Source: a virus
IMG/VR virus record: IMGVR_UViG_3300025012_000306
Coordinates: 1-21,502 of that record
Length of the DNA: 21,502 bases
Reading direction: 5' to 3' (one strand)
The position numbers and the translations under genes were made by a program. Below are positions 2,627-21,502 of this stretch, piece after piece (positions within the stretch are counted from its first letter, which is position 1; each line of letters opens with the position of its first letter). Below the pieces are notes generated by a model. It was not told where the DNA came from. It saw only the letters and a list, made by a program, of their open reading frames with translations, and did not search any database.

Positions 2627-2638
2627 ATAGAGGATATT

Positions 2639-3856
2639 ATGCCCGATTCAAAACAGTATTTAGCTGACCGTATCATTTTCTCGGAGTGCCACAAGCAGCA
2701 CTCCCTCCCCAACCTGCTGACCGCCAGTGCGCCAACGATGATCGACGCCCGGGACGGCAAGGTTCAAACTCCCCCGACTGCTCCGGTTGTGCAGATCAAC
2801 GACCTGTCCAAGTCTCACGGCAACCTGGTCTCAGTCACCATCATCCACAAACTGTCCGGTAAGCCCTCTATGGGCATCGATAAACGTGACGGCTTTGAGG
2901 AGGATGTGAGCTCTGCCCGGTTCGAGATGCGAATCGACCAGTGCCATAAGGCGGTTCGTGTTCCGCTGATGATGGAGCAACAGAAGGTTGGCTACAACCT
3001 GAAGAAGCTCGGCCGCCCGCTCCTGACCGAGTACCACGGCGACCTGACCGACGAGGTTGCTATGAACATGCTTGGAGGAGCCCGCGGCACCTATGTCTCT
3101 TCCGACCGGATTCTGCCCCTCGCGAGTGATCCGGATTACGCGAAGATCATGGTGAATCCGGTAACGGCACCGACCTTTGACCGCAAGTTCTACTGCGGTT
3201 CAGCATCGTCCATCTCCGGTGCTGATGGTCTGACCGCCATTACCGCCAACGATACTTTCGGGCCGGATGATACTCGGAAGTTCAAAGAGGCAATCGAGTT
3301 GATGCCGCACCCGCTGCAGCCGGTAAGCCTTGGGGCTTCCGACACCCAGCCGGGCACCGACCCGATGTATCTCGCCTTCATCACGCCCAAGATGTGGTCC
3401 AACTTCGAGAGCGCCGCGACCGATTTCCAACTGCAGGTCGCCAATGCCCTGAAACGGACCAACGGGTTCAATCACCCGCTGTTCAAGGGTGAGATGTTCA
3501 TGAAGGACAACATCCTGTTCAAGCGCTACAACAAGCCCATCGGCTGGCAGGCTGGCGAGTCCATCAAGGTTTGTGCCAATGACGATGCGGCGACTGAAAA
3601 CAACCAGACCGTACCGAATGGCGTAACTGTCGAGCGCGGTATCATTCTCGGCGGCCAGGCCCTGGCCATGGCTTACGGCTCGGTCCTGCCCGGCGGCTTC
3701 GGTAACTTCCTGATGGACGGCGAGCTCTACAACCAGAAAGCCTGGTGGCGTCAGTGGATGGACTGGATCATGGGATTGGCCAAGATCCGCTTTGCCGATT
3801 CTGCCGGCCGGATCAACGACTATGGTGTCTGCGCGTTCGACGCGGCCGTGGTCTAA
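2639..3856 (+). CDS. Major capsid protein, N4-gp56/DUF4043-like
   Basis: A 405-residue protein matching the phage capsid family represented by N4 gp56 (DUF4043), which forms the icosahedral shell with an HK97-like fold. Recognised features are the N-terminal FSECHKQHSLPNLLT segment, the VQINDLSKSHGN segment near residue 57, the Gly-rich strand around KLSGKPSMGIDKRDGFEED, an IDQCHKAV segment and MMEQQKVGYNLKKLGRPLL near 120-135, followed by a MLGGARG turn. The mid-protein AFITPKMW strand and the C-terminal FADSAGRINDYGVCAFDAAV also fit. The start has GAGGA four to five bases upstream. The gene follows the scaffold with a 12-base gap and is followed by a strong hairpin. Confidence 0.88.
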   Translation: MPDSKQYLADRIIFSECHKQHSLPNLLTASAPTMIDARDGKVQTPPTAPVVQINDLSKSHGNLVSVTIIHKLSGKPSMGIDKRDGFEEDVSSARFEMRIDQCHKAVRVPLMMEQQKVGYNLKKLGRPLLTEYHGDLTDEVAMNMLGGARGTYVSSDRILPLASDPDYAKIMVNPVTAPTFDRKFYCGSASSISGADGLTAITANDTFGPDDTRKFKEAIELMPHPLQPVSLGASDTQPGTDPMYLAFITPKMWSNFESAATDFQLQVANALKRTNGFNHPLFKGEMFMKDNILFKRYNKPIGWQAGESIKVCANDDAATENNQTVPNGVTVERGIILGGQALAMAYGSVLPGGFGNFLMDGELYNQKAWWRQWMDWIMGLAKIRFADSAGRINDYGVCAFDAAVV

Positions 3857-3870
3857 ATAGTTCGACAAAC

Positions 3871-3895
3871 AGGGGGTAGCATTTCTCTACCCCCT
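3871..3895 (+). terminator. GC-rich hairpin after the capsid gene
   Basis: AGGGGGTAG (3871-3879) pairs perfectly with CTACCCCCT (3887-3895) around a seven-base loop. There is no run of T downstream, so this may be a weak terminator, an mRNA-stabilising end or a processing block rather than a classic intrinsic terminator. It lies 15 bases after the capsid stop codon. Confidence 0.55.
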
Positions 3896-3925
3896 TGTAA
3901 CTGATTAAAACTTTTGGAGGTTTTC

Positions 3926-4348
3926 ATGCCTACTATCGAAGCAGCATGCTACAAAGACCTGGCTCATCAATCGCATTGTGGCAACGTCAACTATGAGAAA
4001 CTGGAGTACACCTTTACCGGTGCCGAGACCAACGGGACCGTGGTGAAACTTCGCAAAAAGAGCGAGTACAACACCTACTGGCGCATGCGGATTATCGCTT
4101 CTGCCGGTTTCAATGCTGGATCTGACATCGACCTTGGCTATATCAGCCGGGAAGACGGCGGTACGGATGATCCTGATAAATTCGGCGCGGGACACGATAT
4201 CGTAGCCTCGCAGGATATAGAGGCGTTTGCCCTGCCCTTGGAAGTTGCCGAGAAGCATGACCTGGTAATGGTCATCAACGACAACAACATTGCGAACGCC
4301 GGGAAGAAGGTAACGATCCTGGTTGAGTCGGTTGCTACTTCCGGCTGA
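3926..4348 (+). CDS. Small virion protein, candidate capsid decoration protein
   Basis: A 140-residue protein that looks mostly beta-structured, with alternating hydrophobic strands such as YWRMRIIASAGF and HDLVMVINDNN. It has no signal peptide or membrane segment. Its position directly after the capsid gene, between two hairpins that would let it be expressed at a separate level, suits a high-copy head component such as a decoration or stabilising protein. I cannot place it in a named family from sequence alone. The start at 3926 has GGAGG at 3916-3920; a longer reading from TTG 3914 would overlap that site and is not used. Confidence 0.55.
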   Translation: MPTIEAACYKDLAHQSHCGNVNYEKLEYTFTGAETNGTVVKLRKKSEYNTYWRMRIIASAGFNAGSDIDLGYISREDGGTDDPDKFGAGHDIVASQDIEAFALPLEVAEKHDLVMVINDNNIANAGKKVTILVESVATSG

Positions 4349-4372
4349 TCTGAACGGTAATTCAAACGGTGC

Positions 4373-4396
4373 TGCACGGCTCTTCGGGGTCGTGCA
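4373..4396 (+). terminator. TTCG-tetraloop hairpin before the adaptor gene
   Basis: TGCACGGCTC (4373-4382) pairs with GGGTCGTGCA (4387-4396) over ten base pairs including two G-T wobbles, closed by C(TTCG)G, an exceptionally stable RNA tetraloop. No T-run follows, and the next start codon is only 18 bases away. It may attenuate transcription, define an mRNA end, or insulate the adaptor start. Confidence 0.55.
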
Positions 4397-4414
4397 TGCA
4401 CTTGGTGAAAGGGA

Positions 4415-5089
4415 ATGAACTCCAACGAACTGATAGCCAAGGTAATCGGCATCGTCAACGATCCTGATTACGACACGCCGGCTGACATCCTGAAACTGAT
4501 CAACGGTTCGAATAAGAGGATCGCTGACCTTCTTCTTCTTCCAGACCTGAAGGACGGATTCGATACCGTGGATACCACAGTCGGAGAGATGACGGCTTTG
4601 CTCCCCGAGACCTACCACAAGAACCTGTTCATGGCCAGGGTGGCCGGCAAGGATATCGATATCTTCAAGGACACAGTTTCTCTGTCGCGGGTCCGCGGGG
4701 GATTGAGCCTCGACACAGGGGATATTGCGGCCGTGGCCACAAAGAAAGGCTCTCTCATCTACCAGAAGGTGCCAACGGCGATCACGGAGATCGAGCTTTA
4801 CTTCTACCGCCTACCGGTCCCCATGGTGATTCCAGGAGAAGAGGAAGACGAAAGCCTGCCTGATGGCGCCTACGACAATGATGATTTCGATTGGGCGATA
4901 ATCCATGACACCTGCGCCAAAATTTTCAATGAGATTGAAGACGGCATGGAGGGGGCTAAGGTCAATACCGAGAAACACGAAGCGAAATTCTTGGAGAAGA
5001 TCGAACTTCTTGACGATTACGCTGAACAGCAGGGCAAGGAGCACCCGAACAGACCGTCCACGAATATCAGCTGGTTGGGAGTGAAGTGA
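4415..5089 (+). CDS. Head-tail connector / adaptor protein (probable)
   Basis: A 224-residue protein with a helical N-terminus (ELIAKVIGIVNDPDYDTPADILKLIN) of the kind seen in podovirus adaptor proteins: two helices, then a beta-rich middle with a YQKVPTAITEIELYFYRLPV strand pair, then a long charged helical C-terminus. Such proteins dock on the portal ring and link it to the tail. The assignment follows from that pattern and from its place between head genes and tail genes. The ATG is preceded by AAAGGG at unusually short spacing, so initiation may be moderate. It ends one base before the next start. Confidence 0.55.
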   Translation: MNSNELIAKVIGIVNDPDYDTPADILKLINGSNKRIADLLLLPDLKDGFDTVDTTVGEMTALLPETYHKNLFMARVAGKDIDIFKDTVSLSRVRGGLSLDTGDIAAVATKKGSLIYQKVPTAITEIELYFYRLPVPMVIPGEEEDESLPDGAYDNDDFDWAIIHDTCAKIFNEIEDGMEGAKVNTEKHEAKFLEKIELLDDYAEQQGKEHPNRPSTNISWLGVK

Positions 5090-6012: not shown

Positions 6013-6495
6013 ATGGCAGAGAGATTCTCAACAGGTTTCGTCAATAAAGTGAATACTATCGGTCCTGTAAAAACCGTAATGGCAAATGGGGTTATGGCAT
6101 GGTTCGACGGCAATATGCCGGCCAACGCCGACGCAGCCGAAGGGTCTGTTAACCTCCTCGCCCTGTTTACTGTGGATGCAGGGGTTTTTGTCCCTGGTCA
6201 AGCAGCCAACGGCCTGAACATGGACCAGTCCGTAGATGGCGTTTTGTCTAAGGATGCGACCGAATTGTGGAAGGCACTTGGTACTGCTGCAGCCGGTCCG
6301 CTTCCAGGAAAGATAGCAACGTGGGGCCGGTGGTACGACAATTCATACACAACAGGGGCCGATACTTCTTCAGCCAGGGTCGACTTCCAGATTGGCACTA
6401 CATCGTCTTATGAGGTACAGGTCGCCAATGCGGTTGTCGTGGAGGATAATCCAATTACTCTTAACGAGTACAATTTCACATTGCAGAAGCAATAA
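6013..6495 (+). CDS. Small phage structural protein, beta-rich
   Basis: A 160-residue protein with a layout common in podovirus and myovirus tail regions: a short N-terminal helix (FSTGFVNKVNTIGPVKTVMA), a GVMAWFDGNMPANADAAEG turn, an Ala/Gly-rich body containing LSKDATELWKALGTA, then a paired-strand domain with ARVDFQIGTTSSYEVQV and an NEYNFTLQ end. I recognise the pattern from many phage genomes but know no assigned biochemical role. It starts four bases after the neck-protein stop and ends three bases before the fibre start, so it belongs to the same tail transcript and is likely part of the tail or fibre-attachment complex. Confidence 0.5.
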   Translation: MAERFSTGFVNKVNTIGPVKTVMANGVMAWFDGNMPANADAAEGSVNLLALFTVDAGVFVPGQAANGLNMDQSVDGVLSKDATELWKALGTAAAGPLPGKIATWGRWYDNSYTTGADTSSARVDFQIGTTSSYEVQVANAVVVEDNPITLNEYNFTLQKQ

Positions 6496-6498
6496 CGG

Positions 6499-7668
6499 AT
6501 GGCTCTCTGGACCCCATACGATTATGAAGTTCTGCCAGTACTCGACCTGGATGCCTCGGTTGCGGCATCGACGGCGACTATTGCTACAAATGGTCAGTGG
6601 CTAGATCAATCACCAGAAGAGCTACATGCTGTCCAGGCAACATCAACCGCAAAACCTTCTGTATTAGTTGCTAACCTTAATGACCTGGATGTACTAAATT
6701 TTGACGGCGGTGATTACATGATCACCCCGAACATTTTCAATGCCGCCAGTGACGTAACTATTTTCATCGTACATAAGGCCACATCGATAGGTGCCACAGG
6801 CGATGCTGCTTTTGGCCTGCAAAACGGACTGAATGCTACTAATGGTTTTTTCCATGCACTGGCTAGAAGTGACATAGCGACTAAATATCGAAGTTTTTTT
6901 GCGGCTGATGGGGACGCAGCTGGGGCACTTTCAATTTCTCCGCCAGCAAATTTTGTAATAAATGAATGGCGTGTATCTTGTCATTACCGTTCGGCCACTG
7001 TTCAGGGGTTTGGTTTTGATGGCACAGTCACTGAACAAGCTGCAGTTGGTCAGTGCAATTTCAGCAACGCCAAGGGGATCGTCGGCTGCTATCGCCAGGC
7101 AACATATGCTTGGAACGGTCCTATTGCTAGAATTCTGGTCATTCCAGCAATTCTCCCAACAAATGCTATAGAAAAATATTTTGGGTGTCTGCATCATAGG
7201 TATGGGCTGGCTTCCCTGCTGCCAGTTGATCATGTATACAAAACTGCACCTCCAGAAGTCCTAGACGCTGTAGGCGGGGTTGTGGCCCCGCCTATGTTGA
7301 TATCCGGCACCGCGGTAAACCCTGTTGTGGCTGTCGGTAACATAGTCCATTCAGCACCTTCGATAAGTGGAAAAGTCTGGAATGTCGGGTTGGGAGATGT
7401 AACTGCCCCCAAAATGCTTCTTTCCGGTGAGGCGACAAACCCAATCGTTAGTAAAGGTGCTATCTCCATGTCTCCTAAGGTATCAGGGTCAGCCTATAAT
7501 CCTGTTTCTTCTTCAGGTGGTGTGGTAATGGGGTGTCCGAAAATTTCTGGAATGGCGGTAAATAATAAAATCGCTACAGGTGGTTTATCCATACTTGGCA
7601 AGGTTTGGGGAACTGCAAGCAACCCCAAGGAACTTGAAATTATCCGGTTCAAAAGGTTGGCGCAATGA
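6499..7668 (+). CDS. Tail fibre-like protein with LamG-type domain and tandem beta repeats
   Basis: A 389-residue protein in two parts. Residues about 1-250 match a concanavalin-like (LamG-type) jelly roll: VLNFDGGDYMITPNIF strand, SDVTIFIVHKATS, NEWRVSCHYRS, and a closing ARILVIPAILPTNAIEKYFG helix-strand typical of these lectin-like folds. Residues about 263-380 contain six degenerate repeats with core (I/L/V)SG-x-A-x-NP. Lectin-like jelly rolls in phage tails commonly bind host surface sugars, so receptor binding is inferred. Base composition becomes AT-richer from here through the next gene. The stop overlaps the next start by four bases (ATGA). Confidence 0.6.
   Translation: MALWTPYDYEVLPVLDLDASVAASTATIATNGQWLDQSPEELHAVQATSTAKPSVLVANLNDLDVLNFDGGDYMITPNIFNAASDVTIFIVHKATSIGATGDAAFGLQNGLNATNGFFHALARSDIATKYRSFFAADGDAAGALSISPPANFVINEWRVSCHYRSATVQGFGFDGTVTEQAAVGQCNFSNAKGIVGCYRQATYAWNGPIARILVIPAILPTNAIEKYFGCLHHRYGLASLLPVDHVYKTAPPEVLDAVGGVVAPPMLISGTAVNPVVAVGNIVHSAPSISGKVWNVGLGDVTAPKMLLSGEATNPIVSKGAISMSPKVSGSAYNPVSSSGGVVMGCPKISGMAVNNKIATGGLSILGKVWGTASNPKELEIIRFKRLAQ
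7271..7294. repeat. Perfect 9-bp inverted repeat at the fibre domain junction
   Basis: TAGGCGGGG (7271-7279) and CCCCGCCTA (7286-7294) are exact inverted copies around a six-base loop TTGTGG. The element lies inside the fibre gene, at the boundary between its lectin-like domain and its repeat domain, in otherwise AT-leaning sequence. It could be an mRNA hairpin or a recombination point. No T-run follows. Confidence 0.6.
7285..7635 (+). repeat. Six degenerate tandem repeats coding for beta units
   Basis: The protein repeats roughly every 18-22 residues. Units include PMLISGTAVNPVVAVGNI, PSISGKVWNVGLGDV, PKMLLSGEATNPIVSKGAI, PKVSGSAYNPVSSSGGV, PKISGMAVNNKIATGGL and LGKVWGTASNPK. The core is SG/WG-x-A-x-NP. 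DNA identity between units is low, so the array is old or maintained by protein selection. Confidence 0.65.
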
Positions 7669-9773
7669 TCCCGCCGAAGGAGATTCTTTGCAATAACTCA
7701 AGCGTTGAAGCCTCTTTTCTTGGTTATGCCCATAGCCAGCTTGCCACACTTAGAGAGGCTATGGCATTTCAAGGCTTGAATGAGGGATATAGAAGAGTAT
7801 CTCCATATCTTGGGGTAGAAGTCGAAGTATGGAAATCGTTTTCTATAGAAGTGATTGCTGTAAATGTCGATGAAAATATATATGGGAAAAATCCATATGA
7901 GCGGAAACTGAGAGAAGAAAAAACTGTTCTCGATAATAGGTTTTTTGTGCGAATCGGTTCACCATCCGATATAGAGCTTGACGATGAAGGACATGTAATT
8001 CGAGACGATACTAGATATTATTGGATTGATTTTTTTGCAACAACAGACAATAGTATTGCCTTCTATTCTCCAGGATCGAGGTACGGTGAATATGAGATAG
8101 ACGACACAATTTATTATAAGGAAGCTAGATTCGTTACAGACGAGACGTTCTTACAAGTTGTCAATTTCCCTGACTACATGTTTCATAACTACGTAAGGTC
8201 TTTTGATCTTACAAGTGTAGTTGGTAATAAGTCTGTTTCGGCACGATTCGTAGCTGGATATCATTTTTTGGCTACAGGTGACTCGATTATTTATACACCA
8301 GAAATTCCAACCGTAGCTGGAGGTGATATCGACTTAGCTACAGGAACTTCAAAAAATCCACCTAACAGGTTCTTTGTAGATTTAGAATCAAGAACCATGT
8401 GCTGGTATCATGTGCTGCAGAAGTGGAAGCTTCCGGATATCGGCCCGCCGGTACACACTGAATCAACTGGGTCTGTAGCTGGTGTGATTATTGGAATTGA
8501 TTATGACAACGGATGGATTACATCAGGATCGTCATTATTTTCATTTTCCGGTGATGTTGCAGACGGGCTGATTTCAAACACTGGATCTGATGCAATACTC
8601 GAACCGATTGGGATATTGTCCGATATTTCTACTCTGAATAGAGAGACAGTTACGTTTTACACATCATATCTATCCGGAACAACTCGCATTATTGCTGCTC
8701 TTCCCGGCTTTGATATTTCGTCGTGTGTTGAAACCTCACTGATCATGTCGCAGTTGGCCAATAACTCAGGATATGAGCAGTATCAGTCAGCATCATTTTC
8801 TATGACAAGCGGAAGCGGTTCTTCTGACGCAAACACTACCCATAATTATTATGATTATCCTGAATGTGCCAACCCTAATTGCACTTCTGCCACTCCTATA
8901 AAATACCAGGAGTCAATAAGTTGGAGCGAATCTTCATCAAACTGGTCAGATACTACTGTTGGTATGACCATAGATATGATTGATGGAGTCGGCGTTACTG
9001 ATGTCGTAAATGGTAATGGTAATGCGAGTCTATCTGAAAGTGTGAGTTGTAATATCCACAGTTGTCAACTTCTGCAAGGAGGATCTTGTACAGACCAGAA
9101 CAATGCTGCTGGACAAGGGAAAAGTATATCTGGATTTGTAACCGGAAGATTCGGGACGAAACACAGTGTCACCATCCCGGCGCAGAATATGGTTTTTCTC
9201 GATTCAACCTCAAAGTTGGTTGTTAATACGCAACTGAATAGAATTGTTGACGGCCCAGATTACCCGGCAATGGGTGTGCCAACAGAAGATACTGTAAATG
9301 GTTGGTTTGCTGCTTGGGATGTGTCGGCTCCAATGCTCAAAAACACAGGTATTTTTACTTACGCCGACACCCAATATCCAAAACATCATCCGGTCGAAGA
9401 TCCTGCCAACTGGCTCCCACTGGAAAATTATCCTATTGGCTTGCCTGAATTGGCTGTGGAAAAAACTATATTTAATACTAGAGTTAAAAGTATTGAAACG
9501 ATAAATTTTAGTGAGACTGAGAATATCAATACCGCATATATAAAAGACTGTCCCGATACCTTTACAGCTTCTGAGCTTTTCTCCGCAGTCATTCTCGATG
9601 ACAGGTGGAGTAAGGGAAGCCAGGGCATAGTGGTCGCTGTCAAATCAAACGCTGAAGGGGAAACGGCTATCTACCACAACGGGACCAATAAACTGAGCGA
9701 GATAATGTACGCTCTGTCCAGGGACAAGTTACTGAAGGCTGGCGAATCCTTGTTTGATATCGGCTTAATTTAG
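7665..9773 (+). CDS. Large AT-rich phage protein of unknown function (probable tail component)
   Basis: A 702-residue protein I do not recognise. It begins by ATGA overlap with the fibre gene, so the two are translationally coupled and probably work together. Seen: a helical N-terminus (about 1-60), beta-rich middle regions with many Tyr/Phe/Trp, a Ser/Thr/Asn-rich region (about 380-450), and five cysteines grouped as C401-x4-C406 and C462-x4-C467...C475, which could form disulphides or a metal site. No signal peptide, membrane helix or catalytic motif stands out. Base composition is far more AT-rich than the head genes and the giant gene (one sampled 60-base line is about one-third GC), suggesting a separate origin. 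Possible roles are fibre adhesin, baseplate part or tail spike. Confidence 0.65.
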   Translation: MIPPKEILCNNSSVEASFLGYAHSQLATLREAMAFQGLNEGYRRVSPYLGVEVEVWKSFSIEVIAVNVDENIYGKNPYERKLREEKTVLDNRFFVRIGSPSDIELDDEGHVIRDDTRYYWIDFFATTDNSIAFYSPGSRYGEYEIDDTIYYKEARFVTDETFLQVVNFPDYMFHNYVRSFDLTSVVGNKSVSARFVAGYHFLATGDSIIYTPEIPTVAGGDIDLATGTSKNPPNRFFVDLESRTMCWYHVLQKWKLPDIGPPVHTESTGSVAGVIIGIDYDNGWITSGSSLFSFSGDVADGLISNTGSDAILEPIGILSDISTLNRETVTFYTSYLSGTTRIIAALPGFDISSCVETSLIMSQLANNSGYEQYQSASFSMTSGSGSSDANTTHNYYDYPECANPNCTSATPIKYQESISWSESSSNWSDTTVGMTIDMIDGVGVTDVVNGNGNASLSESVSCNIHSCQLLQGGSCTDQNNAAGQGKSISGFVTGRFGTKHSVTIPAQNMVFLDSTSKLVVNTQLNRIVDGPDYPAMGVPTEDTVNGWFAAWDVSAPMLKNTGIFTYADTQYPKHHPVEDPANWLPLENYPIGLPELAVEKTIFNTRVKSIETINFSETENINTAYIKDCPDTFTASELFSAVILDDRWSKGSQGIVVAVKSNAEGETAIYHNGTNKLSEIMYALSRDKLLKAGESLFDIGLI

Positions 9774-11170: not shown

Positions 11171-12955
11171 ATGGTTGTCAGTGAAAGTTTTACCGACGCA
11201 TTCAAGCGAGCGAGAAAAGAAAAGCCTGGTTTTATTGAAGGTGGCGTGCAGGCGCAAGGACTTCCCCCTGGGGCCTCTCTTGGTTATCAGGCAGGCAATA
11301 TCGCGAACCAGGCTGGCGCGGCAGTTTCTGGCCTAAAGGATCTCGTTCCGCAAGATTCTGGTCCACGGTTCCATGTCAACACGTCGGCAGTATCAAAGAT
11401 CGACCCGAACCTTTCTGGTGGTGCGTACACTCCAGAGAACACTCCGGTGGCAGCATCTGAAGGTTTCGGTGATCCTGTGCTTGGCCAGGAAGCAATGGAC
11501 AGAAGGCGGCGGGCCTCGCCGGCACATCAAAGGGTTCTGGACAGGAAGCAAGGGGTGGCCGCGGCGCCAGCACCTGTTCCTGCTTCGCCACCAGCAGATG
11601 TCGGCCCCGATGTGACAGGAAATACCTTGGCCGACTTCGTCAATCCCGAGACTTCTCCAGCGGCCGCGTCTACTTCGCCGCCTATTCAGATACCGAAACC
11701 GCCCGACGCTGGGACTTCACAGCCGAAAGACCCTGTATTTTTACCTGGACCGCAATTACAGGCTATGCCTTCTCACGCTGTTGGCGTGGCACCGACCACC
11801 ACCCAGTCTGCCGCGCCGATTGCAAAGCCAGTTACGGCAGGACCCGCAGTAACCATGCCTGGATCCGCTGTTCCACTCTCTATGGCAAATCCTGCGAACG
11901 ATCCGGCTACGTACGACACGAATCGCACCGCCGGGCCGGTCATGCTTACCAATGTCGGCCCCGGGAACGCAGGAGGTAAAGCGCTGGGAGATGTCGACGC
12001 TTTCAAGACGGCCAATGCGCTTGAGGGTAGCAGACCGCCGTCAGGACCAGCAACCGAGATTCCGGCCGGCAGTCTCCGGCAGGTTGGAAATCTTGATGTC
12101 TCTTTCTCTCCGGAAACCACCCCGGACCAACGAAAGGCTTTCATGACAGATCCTGTCAGGCCGACAGCACAGATCAATCGATTCAACAATGCCAACAGCC
12201 TTGCCGGTCTCACCCAAGGGCAACGCGCCTCGATGAATGCCGACAAAGTCATCAATGGTGGAGCAGGTCGATCGCTGGCCAGCGTTACAATGCCGGCCCA
12301 ATATTCGCCGACCGGACCGAGCAGGACGTGGAAGCAGGCGGCGACCACCGATAGCAAGGCCATTGCTAATGCCGCGGCAAGGCGCGATGCCCGTAATGCG
12401 ATAAGGACAGGTATGAAAGAGAGAGAACTTGATATCGCCGAGCAAAAAACTATCGCAGATACAGAAAATGCTGTAGCTGGCCGGGAGATCCAAGGTCTTT
12501 CTCTCGCCGCATCGGTTGCCAACAACCAGGCCAATCAACAATTTAACTCTGAACGGCTGAAAAATGATAAGGCCAGGACCGATTCACTGAACGCATTGAA
12601 TCAGGGAAAACTCGCGCAGGTTGACACGATCAATAAACTGCAGCAGGAATATCTCTCTCCAGATACAGATCCGAAGAGAAAAAGCGCTATTGCCACCGAA
12701 TTGAGGACATTGGCGAGCAAGGATGAGAGAAAGGACAAAGGTGCTGTCCCGACATATGTAAAACCTGAGTTCGACAAAAAAGGCGTCCAGCGCCCAGGAA
12801 CAGGAAGGTTCGTGTACCCTCCAGGTTATATCGACGATCTTTTCGGCGATGGATTCAACAAGGACGATGCCTCACCTGAACAGATGTCAGTTCTCCTTGA
12901 TCTTGCCAAAAACGATCCCGACTCATACAAGACTTTGAAGAGTAAATTCAACTAA
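11171..12955 (+). CDS. Disordered internal virion / DNA-ejection protein (probable)
   Basis: A 594-residue protein with strong AAGGAGG five bases upstream of its ATG. The N-terminal half is rich in Pro, Ala, Gly, Ser and Thr and probably disordered. Residues about 400-520 are helical and charged (KERELDIAEQKTIADTENAV, then Asn/Gln/Lys-rich coil). The C-terminus (about 535-594) is more ordered, with RFVYPPGYIDDLFGDGF and SPEQMSVLLDLAKNDPDSY. It lies directly before the giant gene, as ejection proteins often do in short-tailed phages, where such proteins leave the head with the DNA. No homologue is recognised; the role is inferred from composition and position. Confidence 0.5.
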   Translation: MVVSESFTDAFKRARKEKPGFIEGGVQAQGLPPGASLGYQAGNIANQAGAAVSGLKDLVPQDSGPRFHVNTSAVSKIDPNLSGGAYTPENTPVAASEGFGDPVLGQEAMDRRRRASPAHQRVLDRKQGVAAAPAPVPASPPADVGPDVTGNTLADFVNPETSPAAASTSPPIQIPKPPDAGTSQPKDPVFLPGPQLQAMPSHAVGVAPTTTQSAAPIAKPVTAGPAVTMPGSAVPLSMANPANDPATYDTNRTAGPVMLTNVGPGNAGGKALGDVDAFKTANALEGSRPPSGPATEIPAGSLRQVGNLDVSFSPETTPDQRKAFMTDPVRPTAQINRFNNANSLAGLTQGQRASMNADKVINGGAGRSLASVTMPAQYSPTGPSRTWKQAATTDSKAIANAAARRDARNAIRTGMKERELDIAEQKTIADTENAVAGREIQGLSLAASVANNQANQQFNSERLKNDKARTDSLNALNQGKLAQVDTINKLQQEYLSPDTDPKRKSAIATELRTLASKDERKDKGAVPTYVKPEFDKKGVQRPGTGRFVYPPGYIDDLFGDGFNKDDASPEQMSVLLDLAKNDPDSYKTLKSKFN

Positions 12956-12969
12956 TTAGGATATATCAA

Positions 12970-15900
12970 ATGGGCAACATCTTTGATGATGTAGATTCTC
13001 AAATATCCTCACCTATCGACGCTTCCGATCCGGTACCGCCTCCGGTGCAAAACGCGACAGCAGTAAAAAGCAACAGCGCCTTCGACCAGGTGGATTCTAT
13101 CGCGAACGCCCCTCAGCCACAAGAGCCTGAGAGAACAGTTCTCGGCACCCTTGAGGATGTGGTTGTTTCCGGCACAATGGGCGGCTTCGACCTGGTGAAA
13201 GGCGCGGCTGGTCTTGCTGACATCGCCACGGGCGGCACCCTTGACAAGCCTCTCAACACGATCCAGAGAGAAACCGGCCGCATTCAGGATACCGTCAAGT
13301 CCTGGTATTCTCCCGCCCAGCAGGAAGCGAATCAGGAAGTAGAGCAGGCGCAGGGGTTTGTCGGCAAGGGCGGTGCAATGCTGGAAAACCCTTCAACCAT
13401 CGCCCACGGTGTAACCAGGGCACTGCCTCAAATGATAGGCGGCGCAGGCATAGCCCGCGGCTTGGCTACAATCGCACCGAAAGTTCTTGGAGCAACCACT
13501 GCCGGCAGGATTGCCGCATCTGCCATAGGCGAGGGCGCCATCACCGCCGGCTCTACAGCCGGGGAGATCAGGGAGAAAACCGGAGACCTCGAGATAGGAC
13601 AGTCCGGAATGTCACTTGCCGCCGGCGCCGGGACCGGACTGTTGACATTGCTCGGTGGATCAATCGCCCAAAAACTCGGCTTTCCGGATGTTGATTCTCT
13701 CCTGGCCGGTGCCGCAGTACAGACCGGCAAGAAGATGACGGCCGGCGATATCGCCAAGGCTTTGGTTGGCAGCGGTCTTACCGAGGGCGTCCTCGAAGAA
13801 ATGCCGCAGAGTGCCCAGGAACAGATATGGTTGAACGTCGCTCTCGGCCGCCCGTGGAAAGAAGGTGTTCCCGAGGGCATGGCAGAGGGCGGGCTGATCG
13901 GCGCGGCCATGGGTATAGGTGGCGGCTCTTATCACCTTTCCACCAGCTTCATGGACAGCACCAAGGAACTGGACCAGGATCCGCTCGGCGAACAGGTGAA
14001 CAAACTTCTCGACGAGAGCCTCAACGACAAGGCAGCAGGCCCAGTCGAGTCTCCCGACGCCAGGGCGGCCGCACATCTCGCCGGCATACTCACCGGAACC
14101 CCGATTGAAACGGAAGAGGACCGCGGGCAACGGGTCCAGGCCGCCCTTGATTTCTTCAATGATCCGCAGATGCCCCATGACGCCAAAGACCGGTTTGTGA
14201 AGGAAGGGGTGTTTGCTCATCTCGGAATCGATGTTCCCGGCCAGGAGCCTGGCTATGGTCCGGACCAGCAGCAGGGCTACTCCCCCATCCTTCCGGAAGG
14301 GGCCAGGGACCAGATAGACGCCGAGGTCTTGAATCAGCAGTTCCCGGAAGAGACTCGTGACTTGATGTGGGATCTTACAGGGCAGGCAGAAGACGAACAG
14401 GGCATGGCTGACACCAGGACCAGAAAGCAGCGATTCGAGAATCTGAAGCAGCGCCTGGCCGACAAGGAAATTTCCATTGAAGAACTGGAAGCGAACCGCA
14501 CCGGCAGGCCGCTGACCGCCGAAGAATCCGCCCAGGCGTTTCTTGGCCAGGAACCTACCCCGGCAATGGCCGATGTGGAGGGCCGACAGGCGCGCCTCGA
14601 TGACGCTGCAGCGGCTTTCGAAACCATGCCGGAAGAGCAAATTATTCCGGAAGCATCAACTCCATCCAAGGCCACCATCGACAATCCTTCATCCATCGTC
14701 CATGGCAAGGACATCAACCTCGCGCCGACCGAAGCCCAAAAGGAAGCCGAGAACTACAAGACCGCTAAGGCCTCAATCGATGGGCTGAATCTTTCCATCG
14801 AAAACCCGGCCGGCTCGGTGCGCTCCGGCAAGGACGCCTCCGGCAAGGAATGGTCCCAGGAGATGAAGGCCGACTACGGCCGCATTCTCGGGTCAAAGGG
14901 TTACGACAAGGATCATGTCGACATCATGGTGAAGCCCGGCTATCAGGGTGGAGCGGACAATGTCTATGTGGTCAACCAGCACAAGGCGGATGGTTCATTC
15001 GATGAGCACAAGATCATTGCGGGCGTGAATAGCGAGCAGGAAGCCATTGCCCTCTACAATTCCAACTATGAAGCAGGGTGGACCGGTGGCAAATCCGTTA
15101 CTCGAGTCGCCATGCCGGTATTTAAGAAATGGGTGATCGGCCAGGGTCCGAGCCAAGGCGCATTCGTCCGAGAAAGAACCGTCTTTCCTGGAACGAAAAC
15201 GCCAGTTGCCGAAACGAAAGCCCCTGTTTCTGGAACGGCAACAGGGGGAAAGAGTCCATATCAAATGACTCCTGAAGAATATACCGCAGGGATCACAGAT
15301 ACCGACGAAAAGGCCATCCGCCTGGCGGCTCATCCGCGATCTGTAAAAGAAGCATTGCGGTTTGATCTTCCGGTGCCTCTTCCTGTTCTGCAGGCCTACA
15401 GCAATAACCAGTGGGCGAAAAACGGTATCGCCAAACTTTACCCGGGGCAGGCCGAGTCACCATCTACCTCCCCAACTGACAAGGAAAACTTGACAGTTCC
15501 GACTGCAACACGGACAACGACATTCACCACCGAGAAGGGAAGCGTCTATAGTTGGGACGGAAAAACATCCCAGCGCAATAAAGCAAAACGTCCAGAACAC
15601 GGTGAAGATTCAGGGGTCAAGGAAAGGTCTGCGGTAACGGTCTTCATATCTCCAGAAGCAGCGAGAGAAGTCGGTATGTGGCAGACCAGCAGCGCCAGCA
15701 GTAAGAGAATCGCTATTCGCGGCAATCAGATAATACTCACCTCGCCCAACGGCAAAACAGGAATTAGAGGTTCTGATGGTAGGTTTGAGTTTACGACCGA
15801 GCCGGAAATCGGGAAGAACCCTCTTGAGTTATGGTATCCTGACAAAGATGGGTTGTTCAAGGGGAATCATCCTGGGAATAAAATAGTCAGTATTGACACA

Positions 15901-18900
15901 GTTCAGCCTGGACAAACCTTGGCGGAAAATCCGACAAACCTTGGCGGAAATCCGCAGCAGCTTGTCGAACACGTCACCAAGAAAGGCAAGACCATCCGCG
16001 GAATAGTCCGCACCGACATTACGTGGAAAGAAGCCAAGGCCATTGACAAGTTCACCTTCAAGAAGGATGGCGGGTGGTTCATTCGTGAGCAGCACCTCAT
16101 CGCCGACCCAGGGGACAAAACAGGTCAGACCTCCAAGGATTCAACGGTTGAAAACAAAACCGATTCCGGAGCCGAAAATCGAAACGTCAAAGGGTTGGAA
16201 AATTCCGGGATATCCATTCCCCGCGGCAAAGCCGGCGAGATGCTGGCCGAAGGCGATGTGCGCCTCACCGCGACCGGCCGGCAGACCACTCCTTTCCCGA
16301 AAGTGGCAAACGACTCGAACAGAAAGGCCGAGAACACCTTGAAGCGGGTGGACAGGTGGTTGATGGAAAACGCCCTGGCCGAGGCCGAGTCCCGGGGAGA
16401 CAATTACAACGCCCGCATGTTCAGGGGCAACATCGACAAGCCCAGCCAGGCCGACAAAGATTCGGCTGAGATGTACCTGTTTGACGAGGTGCAGCCGAAG
16501 GTTGTTCCGTCGATACTTAAAGACCTCGTACCACCCGAGCATAATGGGGAAATAGAGGTTCCCCCAACCAAGCAGCCAGACGCCATCGAGCGAGAAGCGT
16601 CCCGCATGGAATTCACCAGTATAGACGGGTCAACTGAATTTATTGTTCGTGCTCCAGACGGCAGGGGAGGATTCACGAACTTTGCGAGATTCTCGGTGAA
16701 CAGCAAAGGCAAACCTATCGGCGTGCGTCATTTTTATGAATCTCGAGCAACCAGGGATTCGGTTGAACTCGCCCTGAAACGTTTCGATCTTGCCTCAGTA
16801 AATCAACCATCGCAGACCGAGGAGAATAGCACAGCAACGGAATACCGTTACTACCCCAACGACCAAGTGGTAATAACCAACGGCGAGAACAAGGGCGAAC
16901 GTGGAAGCGTCAGCCGATTCGTCCAGATCGGCAGACAAAAACCTCTTGTTTCCATATCCCTGGAAAACGGGAAATCTTTCGAGACCACTTCCGATAACGT
17001 TCGTCTCGTTGAGGAAAGGCCAGAGACAGAACCGAAGTCTACACTGGAACAACTCCAGGAAATGTCGGATGACGATATCGACAACCTCTTTGATGAGGTG
17101 GACCGGGAGCGGGCCGCCGAGAAACCGCCGAAGGCTGAAAGGGCTGAATTGTCTCCTGCTGAAAATTTCGCGAAAATCGTCATTCCCCATACCTATGGAG
17201 ATTACGATATACCAGAAGCGCTATTTGATCGATTCAAGGAAGCGGTAGCTGCTGGTGTAGGTTTCCGTATTTCCGGCGACAGGGCGAAGTTCGACAATGG
17301 CATGGAATGGATTATCCATGAAAGCCAAGCCATCATGACTGGTGATGACAGTCATGGATGGGCCAGCACGATGTCGGCCGCGTCAATCAAGAGATCGATT
17401 TCTTCCTGGCTGAACGACCACGAGACCAAGGCACCGAGACAGCAGAAAGCGCCGAGCGCCCCCCGGCCGCCGAAGAGCAACCCGGCGGGCCCGCCAAGCC
17501 CGCCGGCGCCGAAGAAGACCGCCGGGCAGATCGTCAAGGAAGGCGGCATTGCCGCGCAGTCGGCGGTCAAGGACGCCATGGCCGGTCTCACTGCTCTTTT
17601 CGGCGATCCGAATACCATCCGGATGGGACCTGCATTCGATGAAGAGACATATCGAAAGGCCAAGCCTCATTTCGTCAATGCCTGGAATGGAGTTAAGGAT
17701 CTTGGGTATTCCGTAAAGGAACTGATCAATTACTTCTATGGACAATTCGGTGACAAGATCCGTCCCTACCTGCAAAGATTCGTCAAGGATGTGCGGAATG
17801 GAGACCTCGAAGTCGAGTTGACAGCAGAGCCTAACAAGAGTACGCTTGAAGAAAGGGGAGGTGAACCATATGCCGATAACGAAAATAGAGCAGGTCAGCA
17901 AGATGGGCGGGATGTACGGACAGACGACGAAGCAGCTGCAGGCGCAGGCGATAATGCATTGGAAGGAGTGGCTCCCGAAGGAAGCGGCGGCACTGGAAGC
18001 GGCCGGGCTCCTGCAGGCGGAAGCGCTCAAGGCGGCCGAAAGAACGCAGGAGGGAATAAGAAGCCTGATGCAGGCGGGGTACCAGCACCACGAGGCGGAA
18101 GAGGTGATGCTGCCGAGGTATATTCTTCTACCGCCGGAGAAGGAAGTGGTAGAGGAGATGGAAAGAGAGTAAGCGGCCCCGCCACCACTCCCGCAGTAAA
18201 TTTCCGCATCACCGAAGACGTTCGTCTCGGTCAAGGCGGCGAGACCGTGAAGTTCAACGACAATCTCGCCGCCATCAAAATCCTCAAGAAACTCGAATCG
18301 GAAAAGCGCCGGGCAACTCCGGAAGAGCAACGCGCCCTCGCCCGGTATGTCGGCTGGGGCGGGCTGGCAAATTCATTCCGCAATGGCGTGACCGGCGAAG
18401 TAAAAAGCGGCTGGGAAGATCGTGTTGCCGAACTCGAGAAGATCCTCACGCCCGAAGAACTGGCAGTTGCCAGGAACAGCACCAAGGCCGCGCATTACAC
18501 CAGTTTCCCGGTCGTGAATGCGATGTGGAAGGCGGTCGAGCGCATGGGGTTCAGGGGTGGCAACATCCTGGAGCCTTCTGTCGGTGTCGGCAACTTCCTT
18601 GGCCTGATGCCGGAATCGCTGGCCGGCAATACCAACATGATGGCGGTAGAGTATGATAATATCACGGCCGGCATTGCCAAGCACCTTTACCCGAACGCCG
18701 CGGTATTCCATTCCGGTTTTCAGGACCTGCCCTTGCCGGAGAACAGCTTTGACCTGGTAATCGGCAATCCTCCTTTCGGGCGGGACAGCCTCAACTTCCC
18801 GCACAATCCTGACCTCAATCCCTACTCGATTCATCACCAGTTCTTCCTGGCCGGAATGGACGCCCTGAAACCTGGCGGCCTGCAGGTGATGGTGGTTTCC

Positions 18901-21502
18901 CGCTACCTGATGGACGGCAAGGACACCACCGTCAGAAAACTGCTGGCGGGAAAAGGAAAACTCCTGTCCGCCATCCGGCTGCCGGATACGGCGTTCAAGG
19001 AAAACGCCAAGACCGATGTCGTGACGGATGTTCTCTTCCTGCAGAAATACACCGAGCGCGAACTCTCGGCGATGGAGACCGCCCGGGCAACCGCCAAAGA
19101 GCAGAAGATCACCCTGCCAGATCCGGAGTGGGTAGAAACCACCACCATTCCAGATCCGCTCGGCAACGAGCCGATGAGGGTCAACGCCTATTTCAAATCT
19201 AACCAGTCAGCGGTTATTGGCAGATTGGAACGATCCGGCTCCATGCGGGGGTCCGGAACCAATGTCAATGTGAAACTCGACAAGTCCGAGGACATCGCAG
19301 CGCGCCTCGACAAGATCATCAAGACCATGCCGGCGGATATCGCCGTTGAAGTGGCGCCGGCCGACAAGCAGGCGCAGTACTTCAAAAACATGGTCGACGC
19401 CATGAAGATTTCCCTCTCCGGTCAGGAGTTGGGTTCCATCTCCTTCAATGAGTTTGGCGAGCTGGAGCAGGTTATCGACCGCGAGACCGACGGCGGCGAT
19501 ACCATTCTATCCAAGCGGGTTATCACACCGTCCTCTCCCTGGTCATCGGCTCTCAGCATGGACAAGGATGGCAAGTGGTTCCGCGACGTCGACAAGGTTG
19601 ATGAGAAGGGCGAGAAGGTCAAGGTGGTTGTCGGTGACAAGGCGACCAAGCGAAACCAGAAAACCCGAGAAGTATTCGAGAAGGAAAGCGACATACCGGC
19701 CAACATGAAACTCGGCGAGCCCGGATATAATCGCCTTCGCGACTCCATACAGCTTCTCGAAACCCTCACCAAGCAGATCAACCTTGAGACCTCCGATTCT
19801 TCCGAGAAGGAGATGGAGAGCAACCGGGCGAAACTGCGACGGCAGTACGACGCCTATGTGAAAGAGCACTCGCATATCAACGACAAGAAGACGGCCAACA
19901 TCCTGGCCGGCATGCCGAACAGCGCCTTGCTTCTCTCCCTGGAAAGCAAGTACAAGCCGCCGATCGACAAGGACAAGGCAAAGAAACTTGGGATAGCTCC
20001 TCAACCGGCCATGGTTGAGGAGGCCACCATCTTGAGCAAGCGGGTCATCTCCCCGGTGGAAAAAGCCACCACGGCGGCGACGCCCGCCGACGCCCTGGCT
20101 ATCAACTTGTCGGAGTCCGGACGAATCAGCCTCGAGAGAGTTGCCGAGCTGTTGGGCAAGAGCGAGGAGGAGACCGTCAAGGCCTTGCATGATGACCTCG
20201 ATACCCCGCTCATCTTCTTCGATCCGGAAACTGACCGGTGGGAGCCGGCCGACGAATATCTTGGCGGCAATGTTGTGCGGAAGATGGAGGCTGCCAAGGC
20301 CAAAGGCCTGGAGAAGAACGCCAAGGCCCTGGATAAGGTGTTGCCGGAACCGTGGACCGCCGACAAGGTGACGGCGACCATCGGCGGCGTGTGGATCCCT
20401 GCCGATGTCTATGCCGATTTCCTTTCCCACCTGACCAAGAGCCCGGCCGAGGTGAAGTATTTTCGCACCACGAACACCTTCCATGTTCAAGGCAGAACTG
20501 CCGGTCCGAGTAATTGGGGCACCCAACAGCGAAGCCCGGTGGCACTTGTGGACGCCATCCTCAACAATCGGCCGATCAAAGTCACCTACACCGACCACGA
20601 AGGAGAATCTCATGTCGACCAGGAAGCGACCGACGCGGCAATAGCCAAGGCTGCCGAGATCAAGGATGAATTCGACGCATGGGTATTCAAGGATTCCGAC
20701 CGCCGGAACAGGTTGGTGAAAATCTTCAACGACAAGTTCAATGTCCGGGTCACCAAGCAGCGCGATGGGCAACACCTGCAGTTCCCCGGGAAGGTGCCAG
20801 ACGCCATCATCGCCATGCGCCGGCATCAGAAGAACGCCATATGGCGCGGCATCGTCGATAATGTGGTTCTCTTCGACCACACTGTCGGTTCCGGCAAGAC
20901 CTTTACCAGCATCGCCCGGGCACTTGAGCGGAAGCGCATGGGCCTTTCCCGTAAGCCGATGGTCGTCGTGCCGAACCACCTGGTCGAGCAGTTTGCCAAG
21001 GACGTTTACAAACTCTATCCCGGGGCGAAGCTGCTTGCCGCTGGCAAGTCTGATCTGGTCCCGGCGAAACGCCGCCGGATATTCGCCAAAATTGCAACCG
21101 GCGATTGGGATATGGTTATCGTCCCGCACTCCTCATTTCAGTTCATCGGCATCTCTCCGGCGACCGAGACCAGGTACCTGGAAGCGGAACTGGCCATTGC
21201 CGAGGAAGCCGTGAAGGAAGCACTGGCAGAAACCGGCCATGATGGCGGAAGTTTCCGCAAGCCTTTGGCAGTGAAAGAGGCTGAAGCCCTGCGCGACAAG
21301 ATTAAGAACCGACTGGCCCAGGTCAAGGAGAAGAGCGGAAAGAAAGACCGGCTCCTCACTTTCGAGCAATTGGGAGTCGATGACCTCACCGTCGACGAAG
21401 AACACGATATCGGGAAAAATTTGTTCTACACTTCAAGCCTCAACGTGCGCGGCATGGGGCCGAAAGGCGGGTCTGGAAAAGCCTACGATTTGTGGACAAA
21501 AA
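12970..21502 (+). CDS. Giant polyvalent protein with DarB-like methylase-helicase (3' truncated)
   Basis: I read every codon from ATG 12970 to the right edge and found no stop: at least 2,844 residues, C-terminus missing. AGGA lies eight bases upstream. Order: Pro-rich start; Gly/Ala-rich segment (57-340) with EEMPQSAQEQ near 278; pyrophosphatase-like domain (594-726); further phage polyvalent segments (763-827, 1002-1045); KOW-like motif (1298-1350); FDEETY...PYLQRF segment (1538-1612); Gly-rich linker (1618-1740); N6-adenine methylase (from 1743, NPPFG at 1933); SF2 helicase start (GSGKT 2640-2644, DEEH 2809-2812). The second half matches P1 DarB-type anti-restriction proteins, which travel with phage DNA. 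The likely role is protection or modification of incoming DNA. The missing part should hold the second helicase lobe. Confidence 0.88.
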   Translation, partial: MGNIFDDVDSQISSPIDASDPVPPPVQNATAVKSNSAFDQVDSIANAPQPQEPERTVLGTLEDVVVSGTMGGFDLVKGAAGLADIATGGTLDKPLNTIQRETGRIQDTVKSWYSPAQQEANQEVEQAQGFVGKGGAMLENPSTIAHGVTRALPQMIGGAGIARGLATIAPKVLGATTAGRIAASAIGEGAITAGSTAGEIREKTGDLEIGQSGMSLAAGAGTGLLTLLGGSIAQKLGFPDVDSLLAGAAVQTGKKMTAGDIAKALVGSGLTEGVLEEMPQSAQEQIWLNVALGRPWKEGVPEGMAEGGLIGAAMGIGGGSYHLSTSFMDSTKELDQDPLGEQVNKLLDESLNDKAAGPVESPDARAAAHLAGILTGTPIETEEDRGQRVQAALDFFNDPQMPHDAKDRFVKEGVFAHLGIDVPGQEPGYGPDQQQGYSPILPEGARDQIDAEVLNQQFPEETRDLMWDLTGQAEDEQGMADTRTRKQRFENLKQRLADKEISIEELEANRTGRPLTAEESAQAFLGQEPTPAMADVEGRQARLDDAAAAFETMPEEQIIPEASTPSKATIDNPSSIVHGKDINLAPTEAQKEAENYKTAKASIDGLNLSIENPAGSVRSGKDASGKEWSQEMKADYGRILGSKGYDKDHVDIMVKPGYQGGADNVYVVNQHKADGSFDEHKIIAGVNSEQEAIALYNSNYEAGWTGGKSVTRVAMPVFKKWVIGQGPSQGAFVRERTVFPGTKTPVAETKAPVSGTATGGKSPYQMTPEEYTAGITDTDEKAIRLAAHPRSVKEALRFDLPVPLPVLQAYSNNQWAKNGIAKLYPGQAESPSTSPTDKENLTVPTATRTTTFTTEKGSVYSWDGKTSQRNKAKRPEHGEDSGVKERSAVTVFISPEAAREVGMWQTSSASSKRIAIRGNQIILTSPNGKTGIRGSDGRFEFTTEPEIGKNPLELWYPDKDGLFKGNHPGNKIVSIDTVQPGQTLAENPTNLGGNPQQLVEHVTKKGKTIRGIVRTDITWKEAKAIDKFTFKKDGGWFIREQHLIADPGDKTGQTSKDSTVENKTDSGAENRNVKGLENSGISIPRGKAGEMLAEGDVRLTATGRQTTPFPKVANDSNRKAENTLKRVDRWLMENALAEAESRGDNYNARMFRGNIDKPSQADKDSAEMYLFDEVQPKVVPSILKDLVPPEHNGEIEVPPTKQPDAIEREASRMEFTSIDGSTEFIVRAPDGRGGFTNFARFSVNSKGKPIGVRHFYESRATRDSVELALKRFDLASVNQPSQTEENSTATEYRYYPNDQVVITNGENKGERGSVSRFVQIGRQKPLVSISLENGKSFETTSDNVRLVEERPETEPKSTLEQLQEMSDDDIDNLFDEVDRERAAEKPPKAERAELSPAENFAKIVIPHTYGDYDIPEALFDRFKEAVAAGVGFRISGDRAKFDNGMEWIIHESQAIMTGDDSHGWASTMSAASIKRSISSWLNDHETKAPRQQKAPSAPRPPKSNPAGPPSPPAPKKTAGQIVKEGGIAAQSAVKDAMAGLTALFGDPNTIRMGPAFDEETYRKAKPHFVNAWNGVKDLGYSVKELINYFYGQFGDKIRPYLQRFVKDVRNGDLEVELTAEPNKSTLEERGGEPYADNENRAGQQDGRDVRTDDEAAAGAGDNALEGVAPEGSGGTGSGRAPAGGSAQGGRKNAGGNKKPDAGGVPAPRGGRGDAAEVYSSTAGEGSGRGDGKRVSGPATTPAVNFRITEDVRLGQGGETVKFNDNLAAIKILKKLESEKRRATPEEQRALARYVGWGGLANSFRNGVTGEVKSGWEDRVAELEKILTPEELAVARNSTKAAHYTSFPVVNAMWKAVERMGFRGGNILEPSVGVGNFLGLMPESLAGNTNMMAVEYDNITAGIAKHLYPNAAVFHSGFQDLPLPENSFDLVIGNPPFGRDSLNFPHNPDLNPYSIHHQFFLAGMDALKPGGLQVMVVSRYLMDGKDTTVRKLLAGKGKLLSAIRLPDTAFKENAKTDVVTDVLFLQKYTERELSAMETARATAKEQKITLPDPEWVETTTIPDPLGNEPMRVNAYFKSNQSAVIGRLERSGSMRGSGTNVNVKLDKSEDIAARLDKIIKTMPADIAVEVAPADKQAQYFKNMVDAMKISLSGQELGSISFNEFGELEQVIDRETDGGDTILSKRVITPSSPWSSALSMDKDGKWFRDVDKVDEKGEKVKVVVGDKATKRNQKTREVFEKESDIPANMKLGEPGYNRLRDSIQLLETLTKQINLETSDSSEKEMESNRAKLRRQYDAYVKEHSHINDKKTANILAGMPNSALLLSLESKYKPPIDKDKAKKLGIAPQPAMVEEATILSKRVISPVEKATTAATPADALAINLSESGRISLERVAELLGKSEEETVKALHDDLDTPLIFFDPETDRWEPADEYLGGNVVRKMEAAKAKGLEKNAKALDKVLPEPWTADKVTATIGGVWIPADVYADFLSHLTKSPAEVKYFRTTNTFHVQGRTAGPSNWGTQQRSPVALVDAILNNRPIKVTYTDHEGESHVDQEATDAAIAKAAEIKDEFDAWVFKDSDRRNRLVKIFNDKFNVRVTKQRDGQHLQFPGKVPDAIIAMRRHQKNAIWRGIVDNVVLFDHTVGSGKTFTSIARALERKRMGLSRKPMVVVPNHLVEQFAKDVYKLYPGAKLLAAGKSDLVPAKRRRIFAKIATGDWDMVIVPHSSFQFIGISPATETRYLEAELAIAEEAVKEALAETGHDGGSFRKPLAVKEAEALRDKIKNRLAQVKEKSGKKDRLLTFEQLGVDDLTVDEEHDIGKNLFYTSSLNVRGMGPKGGSGKAYDLWTK
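14749..15147 (+). other. Inorganic-pyrophosphatase-like domain of the giant protein
   Basis: Residues 594-726. GKEWSQEMKADYGRILGSKG leads into DKDHVDI (D646, D648, D651), which keeps the three aspartates of the soluble pyrophosphatase signature D-x-D-x-x-D. It is followed by VYVVNQHKADGSFDEHKII and YNSNYEAGWTGG. This is a domain described in phage and plasmid polyvalent proteins. Activity is inferred, since only part of the classic active site can be judged by eye. Confidence 0.7.
15911..15953. repeat. Imperfect 22/21-base tandem duplication inside the giant gene
   Basis: 15911-15932 (22 bases) is repeated at 15933-15953 (21 bases) with one A missing. The two copies are read in different frames: the first gives QTLAENP and the second TNLGGNP. 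The net effect keeps the giant frame open. Confidence 0.85.
17581..17813 (+). other. Conserved polyvalent-protein helical segment before the linker
   Basis: Residues 1538-1618. ALFGDPNTIRMGPAFDEETY, KAKPHFVNAW and YGQFGDKIRPYLQRFVKDV form a pattern I know from phage and conjugative-element polyvalent proteins, where it often sits at the end of one module just before a methylase-helicase module. Its function is unknown. Confidence 0.6.
17857..17862 (+). promoter_or_regulatory. Ribosome binding site of the nested gene
   Basis: GGAGGT, within a longer AAAGGGGAGGTG, ends seven bases before ATG 17870. It is among the strongest initiation sites in the window, although it lies inside the giant reading frame, where no start is needed. 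Confidence 0.7.
17870..18172 (+). CDS. Nested 100-residue gene in the +1 frame of the giant gene
   Basis: A complete ATG-to-TAA frame lying wholly within the giant gene. Its product is a compact helical protein: MGGMYGQTTKQLQAQAIMHW, then EWLPKEAAALEAAGLL, ALKAAERTQEGIRSLMQAGY, HHEAEEVMLPRYILLPPE. This layout (aromatic-rich helix, LP, short linker, AAE-x-T helix, YI-x-LPPE end) resembles a family of small stand-alone phage proteins sometimes annotated TnpV-like; their role is unknown and I recall this without a search. Third-position GC is about 76% here and about 35% in the overlapping host frame by hand count. The host frame here encodes only Gly/Ala/Asp/Arg-rich linker. Both facts indicate that this frame is the one under coding selection. 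A TTG at 17846 would lengthen it, but the ribosome site favours ATG 17870. Confidence 0.7.
   Translation: MPITKIEQVSKMGGMYGQTTKQLQAQAIMHWKEWLPKEAAALEAAGLLQAEALKAAERTQEGIRSLMQAGYQHHEAEEVMLPRYILLPPEKEVVEEMERE
18196..19065 (+). other. N6-adenine methylase domain of the giant protein
   Basis: Residues 1743 to about 2032. The entry segment FNDNLAAIKILKKLE...ATPEEQRALARYVGWGG is characteristic of DarB-type methylases. NILEPSVGVGNFLG (from 1865) is the SAM-binding loop. IGNPPFG (NPPFG 1933-1937) is the catalytic motif IV of amino-methylases. ALKPGGLQVMVVSRYLMDGK and the DVVTDVLFLQK strand complete the fold. Key residues are intact. Confidence 0.85.
20815..21502 (+). other. SF2 helicase first lobe of the giant protein (truncated)
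   Basis: Residues about 2616-2844. MRRHQKNAIWRGI serves as the entry motif, then FDHTVGSGKTFT (Walker A, GSGKT 2640-2644), MVVVPNHLVEQFAKD (motif Ia), DMVIVPHSSFQFI and VDEEHDIGKNLFY (Walker B, DEEH 2809-2812). The second lobe lies beyond the window. Confidence 0.85.

Follow-up and report, generated by a model that had tools for sequence, protein, structure and literature searches.

A probable dual-coding locus in phage antirestriction genes: a small gene nested in the +1 frame of the linker before the methyltransferase domain

Can a giant phage antirestriction gene carry within itself, on the same strand, a second gene that is read in another frame? The question is raised by a window of 21,502 nucleotides (by which we mean the whole stretch analyzed, positions 1 to 21,502 of IMG/VR virus record IMGVR_UViG_3300025012_000306), in which an ATG-to-TAA frame of 100 codons at positions 17870 to 18172 of the plus strand lies complete inside a giant frame (12970 to 21501, plus strand) and is shifted by +1, i.e., one base ahead, relative to it. 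We posit that the locus is dual coding: a gene of about 100 residues would sit in the linker before the methyltransferase domain, in the +1 frame, with both frames under selection and with an internal start. Judged from the sequence evidence set out below, we give this reading a probability of roughly 85%.

The host of the nested frame is a polyvalent, DarB-like gene, recognized by PF18823, phrog_10089, and N6 methylase and helicase profiles, and its frame meets no stop from 12970 up to the end of the window, where it runs off. An inorganic-pyrophosphatase-like polyvalent domain (PF18823, residues 588 to 722, E=5.6e-46) is encoded at 14731 to 15135, and the DNA adenine methylase-SNF2 helicase part occupies 18175 to 21501 (phrog_10089, E=6.5e-296, with Eco57I and N6_Mtase Pfam matches), all on the plus strand; N6 methylase and helicase thus stand in a single polypeptide, as in a DarB-like methylase-SNF2 gene. 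Between these parts, at 17869 to 18174, the giant frame overlapping the nested gene has the composition of a Gly/Ala/Ser/Arg-rich linker. Over 84 loci, disorder-promoting residues make up 90% of the giant frame across the nested region versus 69% downstream. The late region of the window also holds two large open reading frames (ORFs), at 7665 to 9773 and 11171 to 12955, that lack any PHROG match.

Much of what a sequence-only reading of this DNA had described was borne out: the complete 100-codon frame inside the giant gene with GGAGGT seven bases before its ATG, the Gly/Ala-rich linker seen on translating the giant frame over it, and the contrast in third-position GC (GC3) over the same bases, which is 0.76 in the nested frame versus 0.356 in the giant frame. 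The accompanying statement that the giant gene is GC3 rich on both sides was only partly right, because it holds downstream (mostly 0.62 to 0.82) and upstream the giant-frame GC3 is mixed (0.38 to 0.88). Is such a frame more than an accident of composition? Its length alone is at chance level: when the synonymous codons of the giant gene were permuted, a +1 ORF of equal or greater length appeared in 50% of trials (P=0.50). What exceeds chance is the homology of the product, the pattern of substitutions, the ribosome-binding site, and the sustained openness of both frames.

Homologues of the nested product did not surface at once. A direct tblastn search with the window protein against phages and plasmids returned no match, and a first scan for relatives yielded near-identical loci. 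A scan with the adjacent methylase recovered loci 49 to 53% identical in that domain, where a homologous ORF occupied the corresponding place and relative frame, and divergent members used as queries then led to homologues in phages of Vibrio, Klebsiella, Erwinia, Agrobacterium, Sinorhizobium, Ochrobactrum, Pseudomonas, and Microcystis, as well as in IMG/VR and bacterial genomes. The search of phage proteins that the sequence-only reading had proposed did find a family, by way of these divergent members and not by direct tblastn. Of 88 nonidentical homologue cores, 85 occupy the +1 frame relative to an open giant frame (at least 300 codons, most 2000 to 5000) and 0 the other frame. A compositional cause of this constant frame was considered and rejected: in a recoding test, the giant frame was stop free in 7% of cases versus 2% for the third frame, a bias too small for 85 versus 0.

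The same picture emerges when loci are gathered with no use of the nested gene. Viral contigs were scanned with the methylase alignment alone, and the best 80 of 464, those nearest the window, were taken; among the 72 distinct loci that these represent, 67 carry the nested family (HMM, E<=0.1), every one in the +1 frame and within the giant ORF. Of the 5 remaining loci, 4 show, by eye only, a look-alike +1 ORF with the pattern W..SP..F..L...G.L..LL. More distant phages (Bcep22-like, 8P, USP_25, and Y7) have +1 ORFs at the equivalent place, that of USP_25 being a marginal HMM match (E 0.0035) and the others look-alikes. P1 DarB and four methylase-SNF2 genes with short N termini were examined and are without a nested gene, so the methylase does not strictly need one. 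Distances between nested proteins track those between the methyltransferases (Mantel r=0.849), which points to co-inheritance. Two bacterial giant genes (L244 and L245, at about 1150 to 1500) have at the same place a different-looking conserved +1 ORF, P.EY..LK.EGG..ALD.Y..EKEREI. No paper on the nested gene turned up in the literature that we searched.

Which of the two frames does selection see? In 19 close pairs, nested codon position 3 absorbs the majority of the changes inside the region, and in the flanks giant position 3 dominates. In 16 independent close pairs, substitutions at nested codon positions 1, 2, and 3 number 106, 88, and 256; nonsynonymous changes number 191 observed versus 332 simulated in the nested frame and 364 versus 303 in the giant frame. 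The resulting omega-like ratios, the both-frame dN/dS-type measure that the sequence-only reading had called for, are 0.25 (nested) and 2.10 (giant) and indicate purifying selection on the nested frame. These data bear on the idea that a G/C-rich linker merely leaves the +1 ORF open by chance, its conservation an echo of the giant protein. That idea accords with the chance-level length of the ORF, but it is refuted by the codon-position pattern, in which substitutions are depleted at nested positions 1 and 2 and concentrate on giant position 1; nested identity is also the higher of the two in 97% of all pairs, and family starts are enriched in Shine-Dalgarno (SD) sites (see below). We regard it as barely credible. 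Could it instead be the giant frame that is the artefact, with two separate genes and an ordinary small gene between them? The low-complexity linker over the nested gene, the giant-frame ratio above, and the annotation of Sinorhizobium phage PBC5 as two genes would all fit. However, the giant frame has 0 stops over the nested region in 84 loci, against about 280 expected if the nested protein alone were constrained (that protein recoded with the codon usage of the host gene), and PBC5 differs in that its frame changes just before the nested ATG; this alternative is very improbable. The comparison of loci thus shows that selection maintains both frames. The locus combines a complete start-to-stop frame inside a gene, purifying selection on that frame, and a maintained host frame.

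How, then, would the nested frame be translated? GGAGGT at 17857 to 17862 belongs to a Shine-Dalgarno-like sequence, GGAGGTGA (17857 to 17864, plus strand), with a 7-base match to the anti-SD complement. Of 87 family starts, 96.6% are preceded by a suitably spaced SD-like match of 4 or more bases, compared with 19.0% of 6439 control ATGs taken from that frame of those giant genes; at five bases the figures are 60% versus 5%. We infer that ribosomes would start internally, at the nested gene's own SD site on the mRNA of the giant gene. Programmed frameshifting, by which the nested frame would be made as a C-terminal extension of the giant gene's product, might be read from PBC5, where the upstream giant frame continues straight into the nested frame. 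Against it stand the conservation of an ATG with an SD across the family and a non-nested copy, in Corticibacter, that keeps the same start and its own SD where an intact giant gene is absent; we consider frameshifting extremely improbable. These comparisons thus support what had been proposed from the sequence, a two-product locus in which the nested gene is real and has kept a ribosome site of its own.

Members of the nested family are proteins of about 100 residues, acidic (median net charge -6), with H30, P36, L42, L66, E75, A76, and E90 invariant. An AlphaFold2 model from 21 sequences is all helical, with a pLDDT of 87.7 overall and about 95 or more at residues 20 to 90, which favors the earlier description of the product as a well-formed helical protein. 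With this model, a fold search of the PDB gave no significant match (weakly 2apl, E 1.4), and a sequence search of the PDB with the nested protein returned designed helical proteins only. The sole significant match in a fold search of viral models was Q8W6J4, which we take to be the PBC5 protein with giant and nested frames joined. In the PBC5 record (L016 8930 to 9309, NC_003324.1), the frame change just 5' of the nested ATG makes that junction, and because of it nested members match phrog_938, solely in its last part (2084 to 2185), the misjoined tail of PBC5 gp22. The stand-alone phage family that the product was said to resemble is, in nearly all phages, a nested one, and the phrog_938 match stems from PBC5. 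The endolysin label of phrog_938 was rejected, given no match to the endolysin domain, as were Hemerythrin, Nudix, and other Pfam assignments, which were below cutoff and inconsistent.

Does the family have relatives elsewhere? It is likely a distant homologue of TnpV, a small protein known from Tn4451-type and other mobile elements, with which it shares a similar size and an alignable core. Profile comparison is suggestive only. The window protein has no match to Pfam TnpV (PF14198) at E<=1; 8 of 31 phage members match it weakly (best E=1.8e-4), none above Pfam's gathering cutoff; hhalign of the two families gives E=6e-4 and 1.4e-4 with probabilities of only 29% and 52%; and one bona fide TnpV meets the nested HMM at E=6.7e-4 in a first search and 0.0035 per domain in a larger one. 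A single-sequence TnpV model (pLDDT 74.8) was uninformative, as was a fold search with it, and a search for the TnpV family in 299 genomes of one phylum gave none over the cutoff. Shared position is the stronger argument. In records with both TnpV and the methylase, coordinates place TnpV upstream of the methylase and in the +1 frame in 10 of 11, the exception being MT836741, with a frame change between the two. Direct checks found TnpV or TnpV-like ORFs nested +1 in a giant SNF2 gene in human-gut contigs, a Listeria plasmid, and an IMG/VR contig. The NCBI annotation of Arthrobacter plasmid pA40H2 labels the nested gene TnpV and has the helicase begin too late; a Burkholderia vietnamiensis plasmid has the same arrangement with the nested gene annotated "hypothetical protein," and Campylobacter pTet has a 166-codon +1 look-alike, both linked to the family by resemblance only. 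The papers on TnpV that we found make no mention of nesting.

How might a gene come to lie inside another? The sequence-only reading had a small gene swallowed where a polyvalent gene became fused to a DarB-like one by read-through. A junction of that kind is unsupported: in pA40H2 and, by resemblance, in the Burkholderia and Campylobacter plasmids, the nested gene lies in a short N-terminal linker of a methylase-SNF2 gene that has no polyvalent part, so it belongs to the methylase's own linker and is not tied to the polyvalent/DarB junction. A broader version, in which upstream sequence fused in frame and ran over a small gene that had stood independently before a methylase-SNF2 gene, is compatible with the dual-coding explanation. 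The occurrence of TnpV in mobile elements such as Tn4451 (PMC3158075) speaks for it, as do related nested genes in proteobacterial, cyanobacterial, and Firmicutes elements, which fit an old small gene. It is nonetheless unlikely, with overprinting as the alternative origin: among homologues we found neither an unfused ancestor nor a genome with a separate small gene between polyvalent and DarB-like genes, the nested gene is present where polyvalent parts are absent, and the few non-nested copies (3 of 88) point mostly the other way. The Corticibacter copy (L065) retains a ghost of the giant linker and an IMG/VR copy (L108) is a decayed giant gene with the small ORF intact; both look like escapees because they keep these traces. 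In the third copy, from Pseudidiomarina sediminum (L071 6974 to 7762), the domain forms the N terminus of a protein of 262 residues whose C-terminal half is hydrophobic, a membrane-protein fusion, and adjoins genes that by eye are McrBC- and HsdM-like. Directly upstream of the Corticibacter and IMG/VR copies is a small lipoprotein-like ORF (6531 to 6956 and 6219 to 6620, respectively).

What might the nested product do? One tentative possibility, which we hold at somewhat less than even odds, is an accessory partner of the methylase-SNF2 engine, since in phages the nested gene and that module are inherited together, and plasmids and conjugative elements also have the two side by side. As such a partner it could work as a subunit alongside the giant protein or, by analogy only, as a small chaperone or localization factor during the making and packaging of the giant protein. 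A part in making or packaging that protein is plausible because the genes upstream of the giant gene in the window encode head functions (portal, major head protein, and head closure) and because virions contain related giant proteins (PMC9144972, PMC9024508): P1 DarB is one (PMC9024508), and virion mass spectrometry of the related Bcep22-like phage JC1 detected the giant protein by 51 peptides, with no sign that the nested ORF was in the search (PMC9144972). The partner reading is tempered by the role in excision proposed for TnpV in Tn4451-type elements (PMC3158075) and by methylases that exist without the nested gene. More generally, we speculate, again short of an even chance, that nearly every linker-bearing methylase-SNF2 antirestriction gene, whether in phages, conjugative elements, or plasmids including pTet, bears a +1-nested TnpV-superfamily gene as a dedicated partner, a hidden subunit that has gone unnoticed since overlapping frames are suppressed by gene callers.

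In the annotated phage records examined, the nested site carries only the giant gene or, in Pseudomonas phage Itty13, antisense ORFs, and annotation pipelines nearly always overlook the nested gene. In Itty13 (L043 3987 to 16325, NC_070969.1), the giant gene itself is unannotated and three opposite-strand "hypothetical proteins" take its place. In two plasmids (L129 3380 to 4088 and L130 3545 to 4100), the NCBI helicase gene starts too late, apparently as a consequence of calling the nested gene. Gene callers, that is, hide the small gene or, when they call it, shorten the large one. Why does this matter? In prokaryotes and phages it is unusual for one gene to lie wholly within another on the same strand with selection evident in both frames; the present one persists in phages of both Proteobacteria and cyanobacteria and likely has counterparts in plasmids and in Firmicutes elements. 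It suggests that a protein has been overlooked in a class of antirestriction machines that can occupy as much as about a quarter of a phage genome, and it gives TnpV a possible new context.

Known systems help to place the locus. Like the DarB-like methylase-SNF2 polyvalent proteins (PMC5512222), the giant product unites an N6 methylase with an SNF2 helicase, here with polyvalent domains upstream; P1 DarB starts with its methylase and has neither such a linker nor a nested gene. P1 also has Ulx, the product of a small gene next to darB, which is listed as aiding DarB localization (PMC9024508). Its likeness to the nested gene is one of functional analogy only: Ulx is encoded by a separate gene downstream of darB, and homology was rejected when the nested-family HMM gave no match to it. 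Overprinted viral genes (reviewed in PMC8227390) are likewise same-strand, fully nested, and dual coding. Unlike them, the family described here is kept across very divergent phages and bacterial mobile elements, and the frame that hosts it is mostly a low-complexity linker.
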